Positions 15,339 to 22,696 of a stretch of 25,129 nt of DNA are shown one piece after another. The first letter of the stretch is position 1; each line of letters opens with the position of its first letter. The notes under the pieces are model-generated. The model made no database searches. It saw nothing but the letters and a program-made list of their open reading frames with translations, and was not told where the DNA came from. Source of the stretch: a virus; the IMG/VR virus record IMGVR_UViG_3300025151_000280, positions 1 to 25,129 of that record. One strand, given 5' to 3'. A program made the position numbers and the translations under genes.

Positions 15339-15608
15339 ATGATGGATATTTCAATGAATACTTTAGTTGTTACAACTAAGTATTATAAGGGGATTGTAGA
15401 TGGAGTAAAATTTATTTATGATCCAGAAAACGCACTAAGTTCAGAAAAATGGACATTTGGCTATGATGATAATGACACAAATGACCCAGAATATGAGAAA
15501 CATCAAAGATTATGGGAAAATAAAGCCAAAAGACGCATTATGGATTTAGTAGCAGCAACGACCAAATGGTCAGAACTAGAAAAGGAGGAGTCGGATGACT
15601 CAAATTGA
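15339..15608 (+). CDS. Hypothetical acidic protein (89 aa)
   Basis: The start at ATG 15339 follows AAGGAG at the right distance; the next codon is also ATG. A longer frame from TTG 15312 is rejected because it runs through element 4. The protein opens MMDISMNTLVVTTKYYKGIV and has a strand-rich first half (GVKFIYDPENALSSEKWTFG), an acidic loop (DDNDTNDPEYEKHQR) and a helical end. No family is recognised. It overlaps the next gene by 14 nt. Confidence 0.62.
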   Translation: MMDISMNTLVVTTKYYKGIVDGVKFIYDPENALSSEKWTFGYDDNDTNDPEYEKHQRLWENKAKRRIMDLVAATTKWSELEKEESDDSN

Positions 15609-15792
15609 ATGGTGTATGTTAGCAATAGGATTCTGCTTCGGTGGAATATTTACAACTCTATATTTCGCATACCCGCTTAGAAAGCTTAAAAGACAAGTTT
15701 ATAAGCTAAGAGGTCAAGTTTATTATTGGACAAGACAGATGCCAGTAACCGCTAAACGTGGACGACCTGCTAAATCAAAATCTGTTAAATAA
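15595..15792 (+). CDS. Membrane protein with AT-hook-like basic tail (65 aa)
   Basis: 65 residues beginning inside the previous gene with an aaaggagg site upstream. Residues about 5-26 (EWCMLAIGFCFGGIFTTLYF) form a membrane span. The cytoplasmic part is very basic (YPLRKLKRQVYKLRGQVYYW) and ends TAKRGRPAKSKSVK. The RGRP core is the signature of AT-hook minor-groove binders, so membrane tethering of DNA is conceivable; the match is short and could be chance. It is the gene immediately before the ubiquitin-like protein (21-nt gap) and may be co-transcribed with it. Confidence 0.62.
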   Translation: MTQIEWCMLAIGFCFGGIFTTLYFAYPLRKLKRQVYKLRGQVYYWTRQMPVTAKRGRPAKSKSVK

Positions 15793-15813: not shown

Positions 15814-16050
15814 ATGCCAGGAACTAGTGCACCAACTGCACCGACAGTAACTGTCATGTCCTTTCACAATGGTGGAAGGCTTAGGGACATGCAAGGGAAT
15901 ACCCCATCTGAGTTAGCTCAGACTATGGATATCTCTCTTGATGGTGTCGCTATATACGTAGATGATGCTGAAGCCAAGGCTTCTACACCGTTACGAGCTG
16001 GACAAGTTGTTTCTTTCCAAAAGAGCAAAGTGTCATCAGGTAGCAAGTAA
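15814..16050 (+). CDS. Ubiquitin-like beta-grasp protein (Ubl)
   Basis: 78 residues with an acggaggt site ahead of the ATG. After a flexible Ala/Pro/Thr head, VTVMSFHNGGRLRDM looks like the first beta hairpin, NTPSELAQTMDI the helix, and DGVAIYVDDAEA plus STPLRAGQVVSFQKSKVSSG the last strands. The closing segment follows the MoaD/ThiS/ubiquitin pattern 'T.L..G..V.f......G'. The C-terminus is SSGSK, so G76 is followed by two residues; conjugation through Gly would first need removal of Ser-Lys, a job for the JAB peptidase encoded nearby. Lysine acceptors K70, K72 and K78 are present. It opens the cassette with the same order as plasmid PRTRC modules. The fold is inferred from pattern and context rather than strong similarity; an unrelated small protein remains possible. 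Confidence 0.62.
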   Translation: MPGTSAPTAPTVTVMSFHNGGRLRDMQGNTPSELAQTMDISLDGVAIYVDDAEAKASTPLRAGQVVSFQKSKVSSGSK

Positions 16051-16168: not shown

Positions 16169-17938
16169 ATGCTGTATTTTAAAAGTATATTGCCTCCAAG
16201 GATAGCTGACGTTGTATCATGTAACAATATTGCAATAGATACTAAAAGCGTTTCTTATGAGAATCGTATTAAAACGTTTTTCTTAAGAGTCTTTGGAAAA
16301 GATAAAGGCTTTATTGAAGATGAGGCATACTGGTCACTACTATGGAAAATGTTAAGTGACCCTAACAATCGTTATGGCATAGTTGCTATTGATGGATATT
16401 CTGATGATCCATTGGGCAAAGAAGACTATGCTTTAATATTAAATATGAAAGAACCTAGATTACGTGCTAGAAACATACATAATCTGGGTACTATATATAT
16501 GAAGTTTGATACTGATGGTAAAACATCGTATTACAATTCAACTACAGATTACTTTGATTTTTTAAATCAAGTACCTGCAAGACATCCTCATATATCAAAT
16601 GGAGAACCTTGTCTAGGTAATTATTCTACTAGACTAAGTAAATCTCAATATGAAGGTAATCCGCTTATGTGGTTAAAAGACATAAATCAATTCTTAAACA
16701 CCTGGAATGCTAATTCTGCGTATTATAACCTTAATACCACTCCAGAGAAAATGATATTTTATCCACGAAATATTAAACTTAAACCAAGAGAAATGTCTAG
16801 TTATAAGTATTTTGGCATTCTTAATAGTGTACAAAGCGATCATCGAACTTTTGCACTAGAGGCTTTAAGAGATGAGCTTATATGGAAAGTAAAATCAACA
16901 GATAGAAGGTCAGAGTTTGCAGTAGCTGGATTTGTAGCATCATTGTGTGGTGATATGTATGATAAATTTGCAGGGAACAGTACTGATGTTTATAAAAATA
17001 GTAAACATGCAGAATATATTGAAGACTTTAGAATCAATACGGGTAAAGTTTCTAGATTAGATAGTATCGGATGGGATATAATTAATACAGGAATAAACGT
17101 ACAAAATGAACAGCCTAGAATGATAGTAAGGTCGGATAATGGTTATATAAAGTTTGTTCAACTTAGCAGTGCTTATCTTAATTATCTTACTAGCACTTAT
17201 TTTGCTGAAGCTCGTTCTGCAATGAAATCAATGGGTTATACAATAGATTATATTATTAAAAGCCCAATTGCTGCAACAAACATACAAAAATACATAATAG
17301 AGATAGCACCTATTATATTAGAGAAATATGTAAAAGAGTATGTACCGATTATTATTGAGCAAAATAAAGTTCTAGCGGATTTAACTGTTAAAAATAAAAC
17401 AAAACGCAGATTAACATGTCATAATCCAGAGATTTATGATGCTGATTTAAATCCAGATACAGTTCATGCAATAGAAACCATATTAAAAGATTATTTTGAT
17501 CATTACAATAATATCAAAAGAAATCTTAAAAGAACATTCAAAAGTATTCTAGATGAGAAATTTTCATCTCTTGACGTTGATGCAATATACGATAAAAAGA
17601 CTGAAGAAGTTTTTGAGGTTAATGCATATCCAAAAGCATATGGAAGACCAGGTTCTTTTGATAATGTAGGTTATTACATGCAACATCAAGGTATTTATGA
17701 TGACGATAGATATAAAAAGCATCTTAAAACATTAGGTATAGAACAATATCCTAAAACGTTTAAAGAACTTATTGTCACTTATGAAAATCTTAAACATAAA
17801 GTACATGTAGAAATGTTAACTGCAAAGCAAGAAACACTAAACAAACAAATAATAAAAGAAGGAGGTATGTTGCATTATGGAAGTAAAGCTAATAATACCG
17901 AAGAAGATAGCACACAAGTACCGCTATCTTTTGACTAG
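16169..17938 (+). CDS. Large protein with E2-like ubiquitin-conjugating domain
   Basis: 589 residues with an aaaggag site. Residues about 50-180 carry the E2-like signature: strands ending in LGTIYMKFDT, a PARHPHISNGEPCLGNY segment and helices MWLKDINQFLNTW. In E2 enzymes 'HPnI..~G.iCL' places the catalytic cysteine, so C148 is the predicted thioester site and H139-P140-H141 the conserved turn. Prokaryotic E2-like families, including PRTRC protein B, share this 'HPH...CLG' form. The remaining 400 residues are unusual: a helical, Lys/Tyr/Ile-rich region with segments such as TYFAEARSAMKSMGYTIDYI and YYMQHQGIYDDDRYKKHLKT and no recognised domain. They may select substrates, in place of an E3. 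The gene overlaps the JAB gene by 62 nt. It would pass activated Ubl from the E1 to targets. Confidence 0.75.
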   Translation: MLYFKSILPPRIADVVSCNNIAIDTKSVSYENRIKTFFLRVFGKDKGFIEDEAYWSLLWKMLSDPNNRYGIVAIDGYSDDPLGKEDYALILNMKEPRLRARNIHNLGTIYMKFDTDGKTSYYNSTTDYFDFLNQVPARHPHISNGEPCLGNYSTRLSKSQYEGNPLMWLKDINQFLNTWNANSAYYNLNTTPEKMIFYPRNIKLKPREMSSYKYFGILNSVQSDHRTFALEALRDELIWKVKSTDRRSEFAVAGFVASLCGDMYDKFAGNSTDVYKNSKHAEYIEDFRINTGKVSRLDSIGWDIINTGINVQNEQPRMIVRSDNGYIKFVQLSSAYLNYLTSTYFAEARSAMKSMGYTIDYIIKSPIAATNIQKYIIEIAPIILEKYVKEYVPIIIEQNKVLADLTVKNKTKRRLTCHNPEIYDADLNPDTVHAIETILKDYFDHYNNIKRNLKRTFKSILDEKFSSLDVDAIYDKKTEEVFEVNAYPKAYGRPGSFDNVGYYMQHQGIYDDDRYKKHLKTLGIEQYPKTFKELIVTYENLKHKVHVEMLTAKQETLNKQIIKEGGMLHYGSKANNTEEDSTQVPLSFD

Positions 17939-18704
17939 ATTCAAAAACACAGAATGGTCAGGCCCAGCATTTTATCGTATTAAAACTAATGATAATGGGT
18001 TTCCAGAAGAGTTTAAAATAGTACATTTCCATCCATTAGACTTAGGTCATGGAACGGCTACTGATTTTGACGCTGGAGATGTGGCATCCATTCTTAAAGA
18101 AACTTATCAAAAGTATCCATCTCTAAAGCATTGCTATATGGGACTGATACACAGCCATCATACAATGGGTGCATTTCTGTCAAGTACAGATAAAGACACT
18201 ATATTAGAAATGGCTCCAACAGAAGGTTTCTACGCTAGTTTAGTCGTAGCAAGTCAAGGTAAAGCAACTGAAGCCTTTGGTTTTAGTTATGTAGATCAAT
18301 ATGGACAAGCACATGCTATGATAATTGACGAAGATAAAATTGATATACAACTACCAGAGTATAAAGTGGAAGATGACTGGATAGAGCAAGCAGATACAAT
18401 TGAAAAGAATAAACCAGTACCACTTAATAATGTTGGAAAACAAACTCAAATATGGCGTCATAATCAAAACACTCAAACAGCAACCGAAATACGTTTAGCT
18501 AAATATTCTAAATCTAAACAAAATAAGATAAGCAAAGTCTTAGATAAGTATGAAGATGGCAAGCTTAATGAAGTTGATGCAGAAGCTAAGCTAGAACGTT
18601 TAGGTTGTAATGAAGTAGACATAATATTCTTTATGGATGATGCAAGTAAAACTCAAGCGTATAACTATGGATATAGCTACGGAGGTTACTATGGAGGATA
18701 CTAG
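17877..18704 (+). CDS. JAB/JAMM-domain metallopeptidase
   Basis: 275 residues. The JAMM site is complete: E26 (TEWSGP) as general base and H92-S93-H94, seven residues, S102 and D105 (IHSHHTMGAFLSSTD), exactly HxH-x7-S-xx-D. Such enzymes cut isopeptide or peptide bonds after Gly of ubiquitin-like proteins and need Zn. Predicted jobs here are to remove Ser-Lys from the Ubl precursor and to release Ubl from targets. After the domain (about 1-155) come an acidic linker, a helical segment (NKISKVLDKYEDGKLNEVDA) resembling short SHOCT-type helices, and an aromatic tail (YNYGYSYGGYYGGY). The ATG lies 11 nt after ggagg, inside the E2-like gene. The start of the E1 gene overlaps its end by 14 nt. Confidence 0.9.
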   Translation: MEVKLIIPKKIAHKYRYLLTRFKNTEWSGPAFYRIKTNDNGFPEEFKIVHFHPLDLGHGTATDFDAGDVASILKETYQKYPSLKHCYMGLIHSHHTMGAFLSSTDKDTILEMAPTEGFYASLVVASQGKATEAFGFSYVDQYGQAHAMIIDEDKIDIQLPEYKVEDDWIEQADTIEKNKPVPLNNVGKQTQIWRHNQNTQTATEIRLAKYSKSKQNKISKVLDKYEDGKLNEVDAEAKLERLGCNEVDIIFFMDDASKTQAYNYGYSYGGYYGGY

Positions 18705-19356
18705 GTTCTTACGCAATAAAGACCTTATCCCTCAGGGTAAGCTTAACAAGATAGCTATTATAGGACTAGGAGGTATCGGCTCACAGCTGGTACCTCTATT
18801 GTCTATTATGGGTTTTAAAAATATTGTAGGTTATGACTACGATACACTTGAAGAACATAACTTGAGTACAACATTGTATCCTCAAACAGCTCTTGGGGTA
18901 AGCAAAGCTGAAATAGCAGGAAATACATCTAAACTATATGCTGTAAATCCTGATGGTATGAAGTTTCACAACGAACCATATACTGAAAAAAGCCCTGCTT
19001 TCCCAAAAATGATTGTTTGTACAGACAATATGGAATCAAGACTGGTAGCTTACAATAAATGGCTAGAACAACCTAATAGGCAACTATTTTTAGATTTGCG
19101 TATGGGTGCTATGGCTATGGAAATTGTTACAACAACTAAAGAACATGATAACTACTTAGATACCTGGGCTCCAACACACGAAATAGGTGAAGAGCCTTGT
19201 ACAATGAAGCATACTATCTTTACAGCTTCAATTGTAGGTGGATTAGGAGTTGATCAGGTCTTTAATGTTGTTGCAAAAAGAGCTTATTATCAGTATATTT
19301 GGTTAGGCTTAATGCCTCTACAAATACGAACAGACAACTTAGTAACTAAAGGATAA
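18691..19356 (+). CDS. E1/ThiF-family adenylating enzyme
   Basis: 221 residues from ATG 18691, chosen because acggaggt lies just upstream; a longer frame from 18637 lies within the JAB gene. The Rossmann start IAIIGLGGIGSQLV gives the ATP loop (G25-x-G27-G28-x-G30). Next come the acidic pair D49/D51 (YDYDTLEEHNL), VCTDNMESR with D112 and R117, and a candidate catalytic cysteine C160 in EEPCTMKHTIFTAS, close to the 'PCT' environment of E1 enzymes. The usual Arg after 'NL' is replaced (NLSTTLYP). It would adenylate the C-terminal Gly of the Ubl, form a thioester and hand it to the E2-like protein. The protein is short, with no separate Ub-fold domain, as in ThiF/MoeB and PRTRC ThiF. It ends 2 nt before the Sak4-like gene. 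Confidence 0.9.
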   Translation: MEDTRFLRNKDLIPQGKLNKIAIIGLGGIGSQLVPLLSIMGFKNIVGYDYDTLEEHNLSTTLYPQTALGVSKAEIAGNTSKLYAVNPDGMKFHNEPYTEKSPAFPKMIVCTDNMESRLVAYNKWLEQPNRQLFLDLRMGAMAMEIVTTTKEHDNYLDTWAPTHEIGEEPCTMKHTIFTASIVGGLGVDQVFNVVAKRAYYQYIWLGLMPLQIRTDNLVTKG

Positions 19357-19358
19357 TT

Positions 19359-20225
19359 ATGGACATTAAAGTAAGAAAAGTGTCTACTGATTGGTCTAAA
19401 TTGCCTCATGGGCTGACTTGGTATTTTATCGGTCAGCCCAAAACGGGCAAGACTACACAGGCTAGTAAGTGGAGCGATAAAGGTTCTAAAGGTGTATTAT
19501 TAATTGATACAGATTTAGGATCAGACTTTGTTAATGAAGCTAATACTGTTACAGTTACATCTTTAAATACTCCTACTAGACCTCAAATGGTTGATGGTAA
19601 GCAAGTAACTAAAGGTGGCAAACCTGTAATAGAAGCTGTCCCTCACGATGAGCGGGGGTATTACCATAGAACTGGTGATGAAACTGGTGAGCCAATGGAA
19701 GTATATTCTATGATAGAAGTATATTTCTGGCTTAAAGAAAACCTAAAATCCCTTCCATACGATACAATCGTTATCGATACTATAGACCACGTTAACAGAT
19801 GGATAGAAGCAGAAGTTTGTGACGAACGTGGACAAGCCGCTATGGGCGAAGGTGCATCATGGGGTGCAGACTGGGCTCAAGCAAGAAAGAAAAATCTTGA
19901 TATCGTCAAGAAATTTCAAACATTATGCAAGCAACTAGGTAGAAACCTAGTATTAATATCGCATGCAAAAACAACTGTCATAACAGATGGAAAAAGTCAG
20001 TTAGGGCCAGAGTTACCACGTGGTCTCTCTTATGCTTTAACTGCATCAGCAGATGTGATAGGGTACGCTACAGCTAGTAAAGAAGATGGAAAATTCTATG
20101 TTTCTTTTAAAGCTTATGATGAAAGAACTGTAGGCAGTAGGCTAAAGCCACTTGCTCAGAAAGTTCTTGATTTTGATTATGGTAGCGTAATGAATGAAAT
20201 CCTAAAATACAAAGAACAGGAGTAA
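19359..20225 (+). CDS. Sak4-like RecA-fold ATPase (single-strand annealing)
   Basis: 288 residues with an aaagga site. Walker A is GQPKTGKTT (25-33), followed by VLLIDTDLGSDFV, the AAA_24/Sak4 form in which the segment after the first Asp is short. Walker B is in YDTIVIDTIDHV (about 129-140), and LVLISHAKTT supplies the sensor-like strand. Sak4 proteins are single-domain RecA relatives that promote annealing with an SSB partner; the SSB-like gene follows 3 nt downstream. The protein probably repairs or recombines replicating phage DNA. It directly follows the E1 gene, so the Ubl cassette and the recombination module appear to be one transcript. Confidence 0.85.
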   Translation: MDIKVRKVSTDWSKLPHGLTWYFIGQPKTGKTTQASKWSDKGSKGVLLIDTDLGSDFVNEANTVTVTSLNTPTRPQMVDGKQVTKGGKPVIEAVPHDERGYYHRTGDETGEPMEVYSMIEVYFWLKENLKSLPYDTIVIDTIDHVNRWIEAEVCDERGQAAMGEGASWGADWAQARKKNLDIVKKFQTLCKQLGRNLVLISHAKTTVITDGKSQLGPELPRGLSYALTASADVIGYATASKEDGKFYVSFKAYDERTVGSRLKPLAQKVLDFDYGSVMNEILKYKEQE

Positions 20226-20228
20226 AAT

Positions 20229-20873
20229 ATGCCGTTTAGAGGTATGAATCCAGTAGCAGATGCTAAGCCAGAATTTACTGGTACACCAAACTGGCTTGGC
20301 TTTCAAGAAGTAGCTATGACTGACGTCTTAGATAGAACAAGTGAGTTCGAAAACTTAGATATGTTTGTTGAAATACATTTTAAGAATGGGAACTCAGAAT
20401 ATCCGTATAAATATGCTTTGCTAGGGACTTTTGATAAAGACCCGCAGGGTAATATTAGCGGAGATAGTGGTCTATTAAAGCGCATAGTCTATCTTTGCGA
20501 TGCTTTAGGATGGAAAGGTGGAGTTAATAAAGAAGGTGAATGGGTTGATGAAAACGATAAGAAAATCGATGACATCGCTGGTTACCTTAACCTTAACTTT
20601 ACTGCTGCTAACTACGGACTTAAAGGAGATGATGTTGATCATGAGAAATATTATATTTTTGTTTATAAGAAATTAAACAAGAAAGATAATAAAGCTTATA
20701 CAACTGTATGTCCTAAAATAGCCCAAAACGAAGATAGGTCAAAAGCTGATTTAGAAAGCTATGTTGACTGGATGAAGGCTAATAAGTACATCGTAGAACA
20801 CAATGAGAAAGCACCAGAAAATGATGTTTCCAATGGTACCGCTGCCAATGGATCACCATTTGACAAATTCTAG
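20229..20873 (+). CDS. Probable single-stranded-DNA-binding protein
   Basis: 214 residues, beta-rich, with an early segment MPFRGMNPVADAKPEFTGTP, a long strand set (MFVEIHFKNGNSEYPYKYAL) and a helical middle. The acidic C-terminal end finishes NGSPFDKF, similar in style to the acidic, aromatic tip of SSB proteins that recruits partners. I cannot point to a conserved OB motif, so the assignment rests on its position between a Sak4-like ATPase and a primase-helicase, its size and its tail. Its stop and the next GTG start share a base (TAGTG). Confidence 0.6.
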   Translation: MPFRGMNPVADAKPEFTGTPNWLGFQEVAMTDVLDRTSEFENLDMFVEIHFKNGNSEYPYKYALLGTFDKDPQGNISGDSGLLKRIVYLCDALGWKGGVNKEGEWVDENDKKIDDIAGYLNLNFTAANYGLKGDDVDHEKYYIFVYKKLNKKDNKAYTTVCPKIAQNEDRSKADLESYVDWMKANKYIVEHNEKAPENDVSNGTAANGSPFDKF

Positions 20874-22696
20874 TGCAACTCTATCACGAAATAGCAATAG
20901 GTAGCCCTCGTAACAGAGGGCTACTTATTCCAGAAGAACAAGTTATAGACGTTTTACTTAAAAAAGGTAGAAACGAAGCTGTATACAAAAGTCTATATTT
21001 ATATGACGAAGAAGGCAAAGAGTATCATAAAATTAAAAAGACATTTAAGGACTTTTTAGGCAAAAGATACATAAGAAATGTACTTATAGACATAGATAAA
21101 AGCCAAAATACAGATGATTATACACTTAATAAAACAAAAAGTGTATTGTTTGAATTAGAAGAACTTGGAGTACAGCAACGTTCTTACCAAATCTATTTTA
21201 GCGGAACTGGATATCATATAGAAATAAGTGAAGAAGTATTTAATTATCCTCAAGGGGATAATGACTTACCATTTATTGTAAAAGAAACAATGAATAATTT
21301 ATTCAGTGACATAGATTTAGCTGTATACAATAGAACGTCAATATATAGATGCGAAAATACTCTTAATCAAAAATCAAATCTATATAAAATACCATTAAGC
21401 CATGAGCAATTGCAAATATGCACAGCTCAGGATATAATGAAAAATGCACAAAGTCAATCAAGCATAGCATTAGATCCTATATGGGGAGATGGTGAATTAG
21501 AAGATAAGGTAATACGAGAAATACCGAAAGTAAGAATACTGCAATCAAATGCAGAACCTACCAATATAGTTCCATGTGTTCAAAAGATGTATAAACTTGG
21601 CCCCGAAGAAGGATCAAGAAATAATACTTTGATGCGAATAGCATCCCATTTCTTTAGACATGGAATACCAAGTGAAGCTGCAAAGGCTGCACTACTACAT
21701 TGGAACAACAATCAATTACAAGACAGTGTAATAATTAAAAAAGTAGAAGACACATATAGCGGTGGATATAAATACGGATGTAAAGATGTGTTAATGGAAA
21801 AACATTGTCAACCTAATTGTATTCATTACAAACGTAAAGATTATCTCGTAGATGTTAAGAGTAGTGACGAACTACAAACAGAGCTAGCATCACGGCTAGA
21901 AACAGATTTTTCTGGACGTGTTATAGATTTAGCTAAGTTATTTGGAGTAGAAGATAAAGACGCAACAATATATCCAGGTGAATTAGTAACTATATTTGGC
22001 TCTACAGGTGCTAATAAAACAGCTTTAGCACAAAACATAGTATTAGGGTACAATGCTGAAGACGATGAAATTAAAAGAGAAGCACAAGTACCTACACTAT
22101 TCTTATCATTAGAATTATCTGGATTTGTAATGCACAGACGAAATCTGCAGATAGTATCAGGGACGAGTAAAGATGAAGTTGTTAAAAACTATCAAAAATT
22201 ATATGAATATCACAAAGAAGAACTAAGTCATATAATTATGCAATCGGTAAGCCCTACAATACAACAAATACAAGAAAAGATAAAGCAATTACAGCCTAAA
22301 TGCGTTGTAATAGACTATATAGACCTAGTAGATGTTCCCTACAATAAACGTGGAGAATACGAAAAGCTAAACTATATCAGTCACAGCTTATCTAATATAG
22401 CGGTAAATGATGACATTATTATAATACAGATATCACAAGTATCTAGAGATTATTCTCGTAATCAAATAATGGACTTATATGCTGCTAAAGGTAGTGGTGC
22501 AATAGAAAACGCATCACGAAAGGTTATAGGTATTACTGGTTCATCAGAAACAGCAGATAAAAAGATGAGCATTTACAAAAATAGTGACGGTGATCTATTT
22601 GAAGTTGAACTACAATGGACACCATCATTCCGTTTAAAGAAAAAGCCTACCATGTATAGCCACGCACTTGGCGGTAGGTTTACAATCCAGGAGTAA
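20873..22696 (+). CDS. AEP primase-DnaB-type helicase fusion
   Basis: 607 residues from a GTG overlapping the preceding stop. The N-terminal primase is of the archaeo-eukaryotic type: D73 and D75 (NVLIDIDKSQN), the S110-H115 motif (FSGTGYHIEIS), D148 with R154 (DIDLAVYNRT) and the basic loop SNLYKIPL. A PriCT-like helical unit (SRNNTLMRIASHFFRHGIPS) and a Cys/His cluster (C303, C312, C316, H318; CKDVLMEKHCQPNCIHYK) follow. The C-terminal part (about 345-607) is a DnaB/RecA-type motor, with Walker A GSTGANKT (376-383), Walker B CVVIDYIDLV and the motif IIIIQISQVSRD. Walker A carries Asn where Gly is usual before Lys. The protein would prime and unwind DNA at the phage fork. Confidence 0.86.
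   Translation: MQLYHEIAIGSPRNRGLLIPEEQVIDVLLKKGRNEAVYKSLYLYDEEGKEYHKIKKTFKDFLGKRYIRNVLIDIDKSQNTDDYTLNKTKSVLFELEELGVQQRSYQIYFSGTGYHIEISEEVFNYPQGDNDLPFIVKETMNNLFSDIDLAVYNRTSIYRCENTLNQKSNLYKIPLSHEQLQICTAQDIMKNAQSQSSIALDPIWGDGELEDKVIREIPKVRILQSNAEPTNIVPCVQKMYKLGPEEGSRNNTLMRIASHFFRHGIPSEAAKAALLHWNNNQLQDSVIIKKVEDTYSGGYKYGCKDVLMEKHCQPNCIHYKRKDYLVDVKSSDELQTELASRLETDFSGRVIDLAKLFGVEDKDATIYPGELVTIFGSTGANKTALAQNIVLGYNAEDDEIKREAQVPTLFLSLELSGFVMHRRNLQIVSGTSKDEVVKNYQKLYEYHKEELSHIIMQSVSPTIQQIQEKIKQLQPKCVVIDYIDLVDVPYNKRGEYEKLNYISHSLSNIAVNDDIIIIQISQVSRDYSRNQIMDLYAAKGSGAIENASRKVIGITGSSETADKKMSIYKNSDGDLFEVELQWTPSFRLKKKPTMYSHALGGRFTIQE

Follow-up and report, generated by a model that had tools for sequence, protein, structure and literature searches.

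Comparison of one marine phage locus with its relatives suggests that the phage makes a ubiquitin-like modifier in precursor form, as a 78-aa ubiquitin-like protein (Ubl) encoded there. In the scheme that we favor, and to which we assign a probability of about 0.72, a peptidase, most likely the JAB of the same gene cassette, would cut after Gly76 and release Ser-Lys; the free Gly76 carboxylate would be adenylated by the phage E1 (18691-19356), and the Ubl would then be passed as a thioester onto Cys148 of an E2-like protein and joined, in early or replicative infection, to a target of the phage or its host, with JAB also stripping the modifier from its targets. Judged from their sequences, Ubl, E2-like protein, JAB and E1 travel together with their catalytic motifs intact; we infer the cut by JAB, the charging of the Gly by E1 and E2, proteins as the targets and the role in infection.

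The window, the whole stretch of 25,129 nucleotides that was analysed, is a virus record in which the cassette and the replication genes occupy the plus strand on the right side. The left part carries, on the minus strand, frames for terminase, portal and major capsid; the terminase was matched by tblastn, and portal and capsid are our reading of the order and size of the frames. The features of the cassette and its surroundings are as follows.

15595..15792, plus strand: small gene, 65 aa, just upstream of Ubl; hydrophobic N-terminus by eye
15814..16050, plus strand: putative Ubl precursor, ubiquitin-like (beta-grasp), 78 aa, end SSG-SK
16039-16041, 16042-16044, 16045-16047 and 16048-16050, plus strand: Ubl codons for Gly76, Ser77 and Lys78, and the stop codon
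16169..17938, plus strand: E2-like protein, 589 aa; H139-P140-H141 ... C148-x-G150 invariant
17877..18704, plus strand: JAB/JAMM peptidase, 275 aa; 5′ part overlaps the end of the E2-like gene
18691..19356, plus strand: E1 / ThiF-type adenylyltransferase; the frame is open from 18637, and the probable start codon, preceded by ggagg, is at 18691
19359..20225, plus strand: Sak4-like recombination ATPase, conserved next gene after E1; a replication-module marker, given as context outside the cascade
20229-20873, plus strand: 214-aa protein of unknown family; context, conserved order after the cassette
20873-22696, plus strand: DnaB/primase-like helicase; context, conserved order after the cassette

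Within contig reach, the order Ubl, E2-like, JAB, E1, Sak4-like ATPase, 214-aa protein and DnaB/primase is found in 16/16 of the first homologous viral loci, and the small gene at 15595..15792 is conserved in 13 of these 16. Ubl opens a conserved phage cassette, whose Ubl-E2-like-JAB-E1 order is kept wherever the contig allows. In crAss-like phages, primase and uracil-DNA glycosylase genes adjoin the cassette. Its position in the replication module of two distant phage groups suggests that it acts upon host proteins, or upon replication, at an early stage of infection.

The Ubl ORF has an ATG start behind a good ribosome-binding site, cggaggttaatatg, and its translation ends in KSKVSSGSK, so that the original prediction had correctly located both the gene (15814-16050) and Gly76, two residues before the end. 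Relatives came from IMG/VR scans with Ubl, E1 and a crAss-type E1, together with crAss-like and Flavobacterium phages already annotated. Of the 158 Ubl-bearing loci, 72 non-redundant ones remained once near-copies were removed, and locus L126, in which the extension is probably a frameshift artefact, was excluded from the counts. (In L126:3123-3601, the Ubl frame ends in a proline-rich stretch, and a domain resembling the one in the L109 Ubl fusion is encoded in the next frame.) Conservation of Gly76 among homologous C-termini had been proposed as a check, and the outcome is strongly positive: the Gly is invariant in all 72 non-redundant Ubls, and the pair found in place of a terminal Gly-Gly is Ser-Gly in 71/72 and, in L177, His-Gly (1/72). 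Entropy is 0.0 bits at the Gly and 0.1 bits at the Ser, and 3.0-3.7 bits at each of the next four positions. Conservation of the Gly in this alignment is far above chance, and S-G is the exact border between constrained and free sequence. The idea of a single Gly as uncommon has to be qualified: S-G is the rule throughout the family, and a single-Gly precursor is already known in UFM1 (PMC3021533).

Distinct Ubls of the window clade end at the Gly itself or continue with K, S, C, V, Q, Y, R, SK, VS, NK, NI, RV, SSKG or, in several cases, 8-19 residues. Among the non-redundant members of this clade, the tail has 0 residues in one Ubl, 1 in twelve and 2 in five, and single Ubls have 4, 8, 9, 9, 10, 19 and 76 residues, the last being L109 with 76 aa after SG. 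In the crAss/Flavobacterium clade, two non-redundant Ubls have 2 or 3 residues after SG and the rest have 53-185; over all loci, the longest domain fused after SG in crAss-like and Flavobacterium phages reaches 217 residues. On the E1 tree, at least 17 changes of tail-length class are required, of which 14 fall inside the window clade, while SG stays fixed. Before removal of near-copies, a bare SG ending is present in six loci from three lineages, which leave one non-redundant representative. Two near-identical phages, L033 (aaatctggttaatag) and L030 (aaatctggcgtatag), differ in precisely this respect: the Ubl ends SG-stop in the former (ggt taa) and SGV-stop in the latter (ggc gta tag), a switch by point substitutions which indicates that the residue after the Gly is dispensable and that the Gly can be a natural end. 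With natural SG-stop endings in three lineages, the mature Ubl very probably terminates at Gly76.

In crAss-like and Flavobacterium phage Ubls, SG leads straight into another domain, so that the fused Ubl would be usable by E1 only after cleavage behind the Gly. In cr106_1 (L129:3930-4880), the Ubl ends SGKF-stop, an HNH endonuclease gene starts immediately after this stop codon, and a separate ORF behind the HNH gene encodes a relative of the domain that is fused to the Ubl in close neighbours; as read from these frames, cr106_1 is a natural split of Ubl and partner domain at the SG junction. Extension far beyond the Gly had been named in advance as grounds for abandoning the original prediction. 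It is indeed seen in some homologues, but it favors processing rather than refuting it, because whole domains follow exactly after the invariant SG while other homologues stop at the Gly. As to the partners, the SG of cr126_1 (L132:4287-5213) is followed by a linker and then by a ribosomal protein L7/L12 C-terminal domain (PF00542, E 5e-12, residues 158-220), an echo of the ubiquitin-ribosomal protein fusions of eukaryotes. The domain fused to crAss-type Ubls (e.g., L131:4394-5179) has a recurring pattern, IKxxxLxxAxKxxFGKNxTQxxTxxL ... SxxEIxxMF, across 56 tails.

JAB is the best candidate for the protease that acts on the Ubl precursor, because its motif residues are kept and it travels with the Ubl. 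The window copy has the JAMM catalytic Glu and the motif H92-S-H94-x7-S102-x2-D105, in which H92 (codon 18150-18152) and D105 (codon 18189-18191) are the two residues that the original prediction had correctly picked out. E26, H92, H94, S102 and D105 are invariant in nine aligned sequences, the motif is intact in every complete JAB, and an intact JAB is present in every locus long enough to show one. Despite its full JAMM motif, the window JAB falls below the Pfam cut-off; the crAss relative in L131 lies just above it. The argument that the tail by itself implies JAB as the processing enzyme is unsupported as stated, given that a fully intact JAB is retained in 6/6 loci with a bare-Gly Ubl. 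JAB must therefore have a role beyond maturation, most likely deconjugation, and tail removal is not its only, and perhaps not its main, selected function. It is also possible, though in our estimate improbable, that Gly76 is the reactive end but a host peptidase or carboxypeptidase removes the tail, leaving the phage JAB to deconjugation only. The intact JAB beside tailless Ubls fits such an arrangement, as do the unconstrained tail residues, which give no evident specific P1′ recognition, but the 53-217-residue fusions need endoproteolysis exactly after SG, which carboxypeptidase trimming cannot give, and no peptidase other than JAB is constantly found with the Ubl.

The C-terminal end of JAB is itself unusual, with the Gly/Tyr-rich sequence GYSYGGYYGGY (window 18665-18704) encoded by codons in which the ggagg ribosome-binding site and the start of E1 also lie. 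This odd tail was considered as a second Ubl or a target; it is partly explained by the overlapping E1 ribosome-binding site and may in part be a by-product of the gene overlap.

The Ubl model (AlphaFold2, 42 relatives; mean pLDDT 76.8, moderate) is a beta-grasp of the order beta-beta-alpha-beta-beta. Its last strand stops at residue 70, and residues 71-78 are flexible and of low confidence, so that the Gly lies in a flexible C-terminal tail, the location of the reactive Gly in beta-grasp modifiers. The closest solved fold is TtuB (Z 8.0, rmsd 2.1, 63 aligned), and others nearby are MoaD (Z 7.6), SAMP2 with a JAMM peptidase (5lda, Z 6.8), SAMP1 and CysO; Z values of 6.7 to 8.0 are moderate and support the predicted fold class, not a function. 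In a Pfam search, the window Ubl fell below every cut-off.

The E1 matches Pfam ThiF above the cut-off, with an E-value of 4e-11, and contains the expected GxGGxG nucleotide site with catalytic Asp and Cys: GLGGIG (G43..G48), D130 and the candidate catalytic C188, numbered from 18637, are invariant. Its profile matches among solved structures include UBA5, SUMO E1, NEDD8 E1 and MoeB, with UBA5 the best. In the E2-like protein, HPH and the following C-x-G are invariant in 32 sequences that are 13-55 percent identical to the window copy. The model (mean pLDDT 85) has a helix, strands, the Cys motif and then helices, in the order seen in E2 enzymes, and sequence and model together place an HPN-like motif ahead of a putative catalytic Cys after the beta-meander. 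The 589-aa protein gave no database match. With a profile of the E2-like domain, the best-scoring solved sequence was the E2 UBE2W, aligned over exactly the HPH..CxG motif with a non-significant E of 0.21, and a structure search with the whole 589-aa model, in which long helices filled the list, did not confirm a UBC fold. crAss E2-like proteins have H-S-H..C-x-G, and profile comparison aligns both motifs with E 0.006 but a probability of only 6. The C-terminal part of the protein is long, helical and fast-evolving, with a conserved last motif, QVxLSF; in the model, residues 343-466 (window 17195-17566) form long helices that could be a target-binding region.

The constant presence of an E2-like protein with invariant HPH...CxG leads us to favor protein conjugation over sulfur transfer as the probable function. 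A sulfur carrier, in which JAB would expose Gly76 and E1 would adenylate it toward a thiocarboxylate used in biosynthesis or RNA thiolation, with no protein conjugation, might be suspected from the nearest folds (TtuB, MoaD and CysO are sulfur carriers), from the weak Pfam ThiS matches of some Ubl family members and from the small ThiF-type domain of the E1. We consider it less probable still than trimming by the host, as the E2-like protein is a constant member of the cassette, rhodanese, sulfurtransferase and metabolic genes were not seen in the window's gene list, and conjugating SAMPs share the same fold. Least likely of all is a tail that is never removed from a Ubl that acts as a non-covalent scaffold or adaptor, with S-G structural and Gly76 not a reactive terminus: free variation after the Gly is equally expected of such a harmless tail, and the role of the Ubl is read here from sequence and model, but nowhere is the family more conserved than at SG, although it sits in a flexible tail beyond the last strand, a place with little apparent scope for a structural role, and the E1 and E2 motifs are maintained.

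A DNA-level search of annotated phages gave no match, and tblastn against annotated phages gave none with the Ubl; the E1 probe reached cultured relatives. Among bacterial genomes, a first scan gave no relative for the window-clade E1; the crAss-type E1 picked out three MAG contigs, among them one of 12.3 kb and one of 6.8 kb with a Ubl upstream. All four crAss/Flavobacterium proteins fall into PHROGs families of unknown function. In the annotated crAss-like phages L128, L129 and L131-L134, the E1 is named thiamine biosynthesis protein ThiF, the JAB a metalloprotease-domain protein, and the Ubl and E2-like proteins hypothetical, which is probably misannotation. If our reading is correct, labels such as thiamine biosynthesis protein and metalloprotease domain in such phages need revision, and a full E1-E2-Ubl-JAB cycle stands among the core genes of phages that include cultured crAss-like ones, making Ubl conjugation during infection directly testable; natural tail variants are at hand for testing JAB. 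In a broader picture, to which we give even odds, lytic phages, ranging from marine ones to the crAss-like phages of the human gut, have in their replication module a ubiquitin-type conjugation cascade that is complete and self-contained, with a precursor that in many genomes is fused to a separate functional domain; JAB would free modifier and partner and reverse conjugation, and the phage would use the system to reprogram replication or counter host defence.

The individual parts of the cassette and the idea of maturation by JAB are already known; the full cassette in phage replication modules looks like a novel form of such systems. A search of open-access papers found no report of this phage cascade, a weak sign that it is new. 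Iyer, Burroughs and Aravind (2006) predicted JAB processing of tailed or fused prokaryotic Ubls, phage tail proteins included, and for Ubl-E1-E2-JAB operons predicted that JAB both processes and removes the Ubl (PMC1779556). Their bacterial row 6d operons resemble the phage cassette in having a stand-alone small Ubl with a conserved C-terminal Gly, a separate E2-like protein with a conserved Cys, and clustered JAB and E1 (PMC1779556). They differ in being mobile bacterial operons, in an E2 that lacks the usual His, whereas the phage E2-like protein has HPH before the Cys, and in a helical protein of which no counterpart was identified in the phage cassette. BilABCD shares the four functions Ubl, E2, JAB and E1 and a precursor Ubl, BilA, which is processed by JAB to expose a C-terminal Gly (PMC11354881). 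In contrast to the single-domain phage Ubl of 78 aa, BilA consists of two tandem Ubl domains; the Bil E1 has an inactive and an active adenylation domain, whereas the phage E1 is a single ThiF domain of about 220 aa; and BilABCD is anti-phage, whereas this cassette is carried by phage. The tandem Ubl and two-domain E1 of Bil are accordingly absent here, and the BilD model matches in part only (16.7 bits).

Tail assembly proteins I and K of lambda and T1 also combine a phage Ubl with a C-terminal Gly, a fused C-terminal domain and a paired JAB predicted to release the Ubl (PMC1779556). That pair belongs to the tail module, has a JAB fused to NlpC/P60 and lacks E1 and E2, whereas the window has a whole cascade in the replication module, with the JAB next to an E1 and no NlpC/P60 match. 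With the NCBIfam models for PRTRC (A, C and ThiF), window Ubl, E2-like protein and JAB gave no match, and E1 scored 19.2 bits against a cut-off of 144.75. On the tested features, the phage cassette lies outside Bil, PRTRC and the lambda tail pair. SAMP2, TtuB and MoaD have a beta-grasp of the same type, and an archaeal JAMM peptidase, PfJAMM1, binds SAMP2 (5lda), but these proteins end in Gly-Gly and are not known as tailed precursors from a cassette of this kind. UFM1, processed by UfSP1/2, has a short tail after a single conserved Gly, of 17 residues in one lineage (Leishmania; PMC3021533), and its E1, UBA5, is the best solved match of the phage E1 profile; it differs in being eukaryotic and processed by cysteine proteases, and is not homologous as a system. 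The series from bare Gly through short tails to fused domains in these phages repeats the precursor styles of eukaryotic ubiquitin and its relatives.
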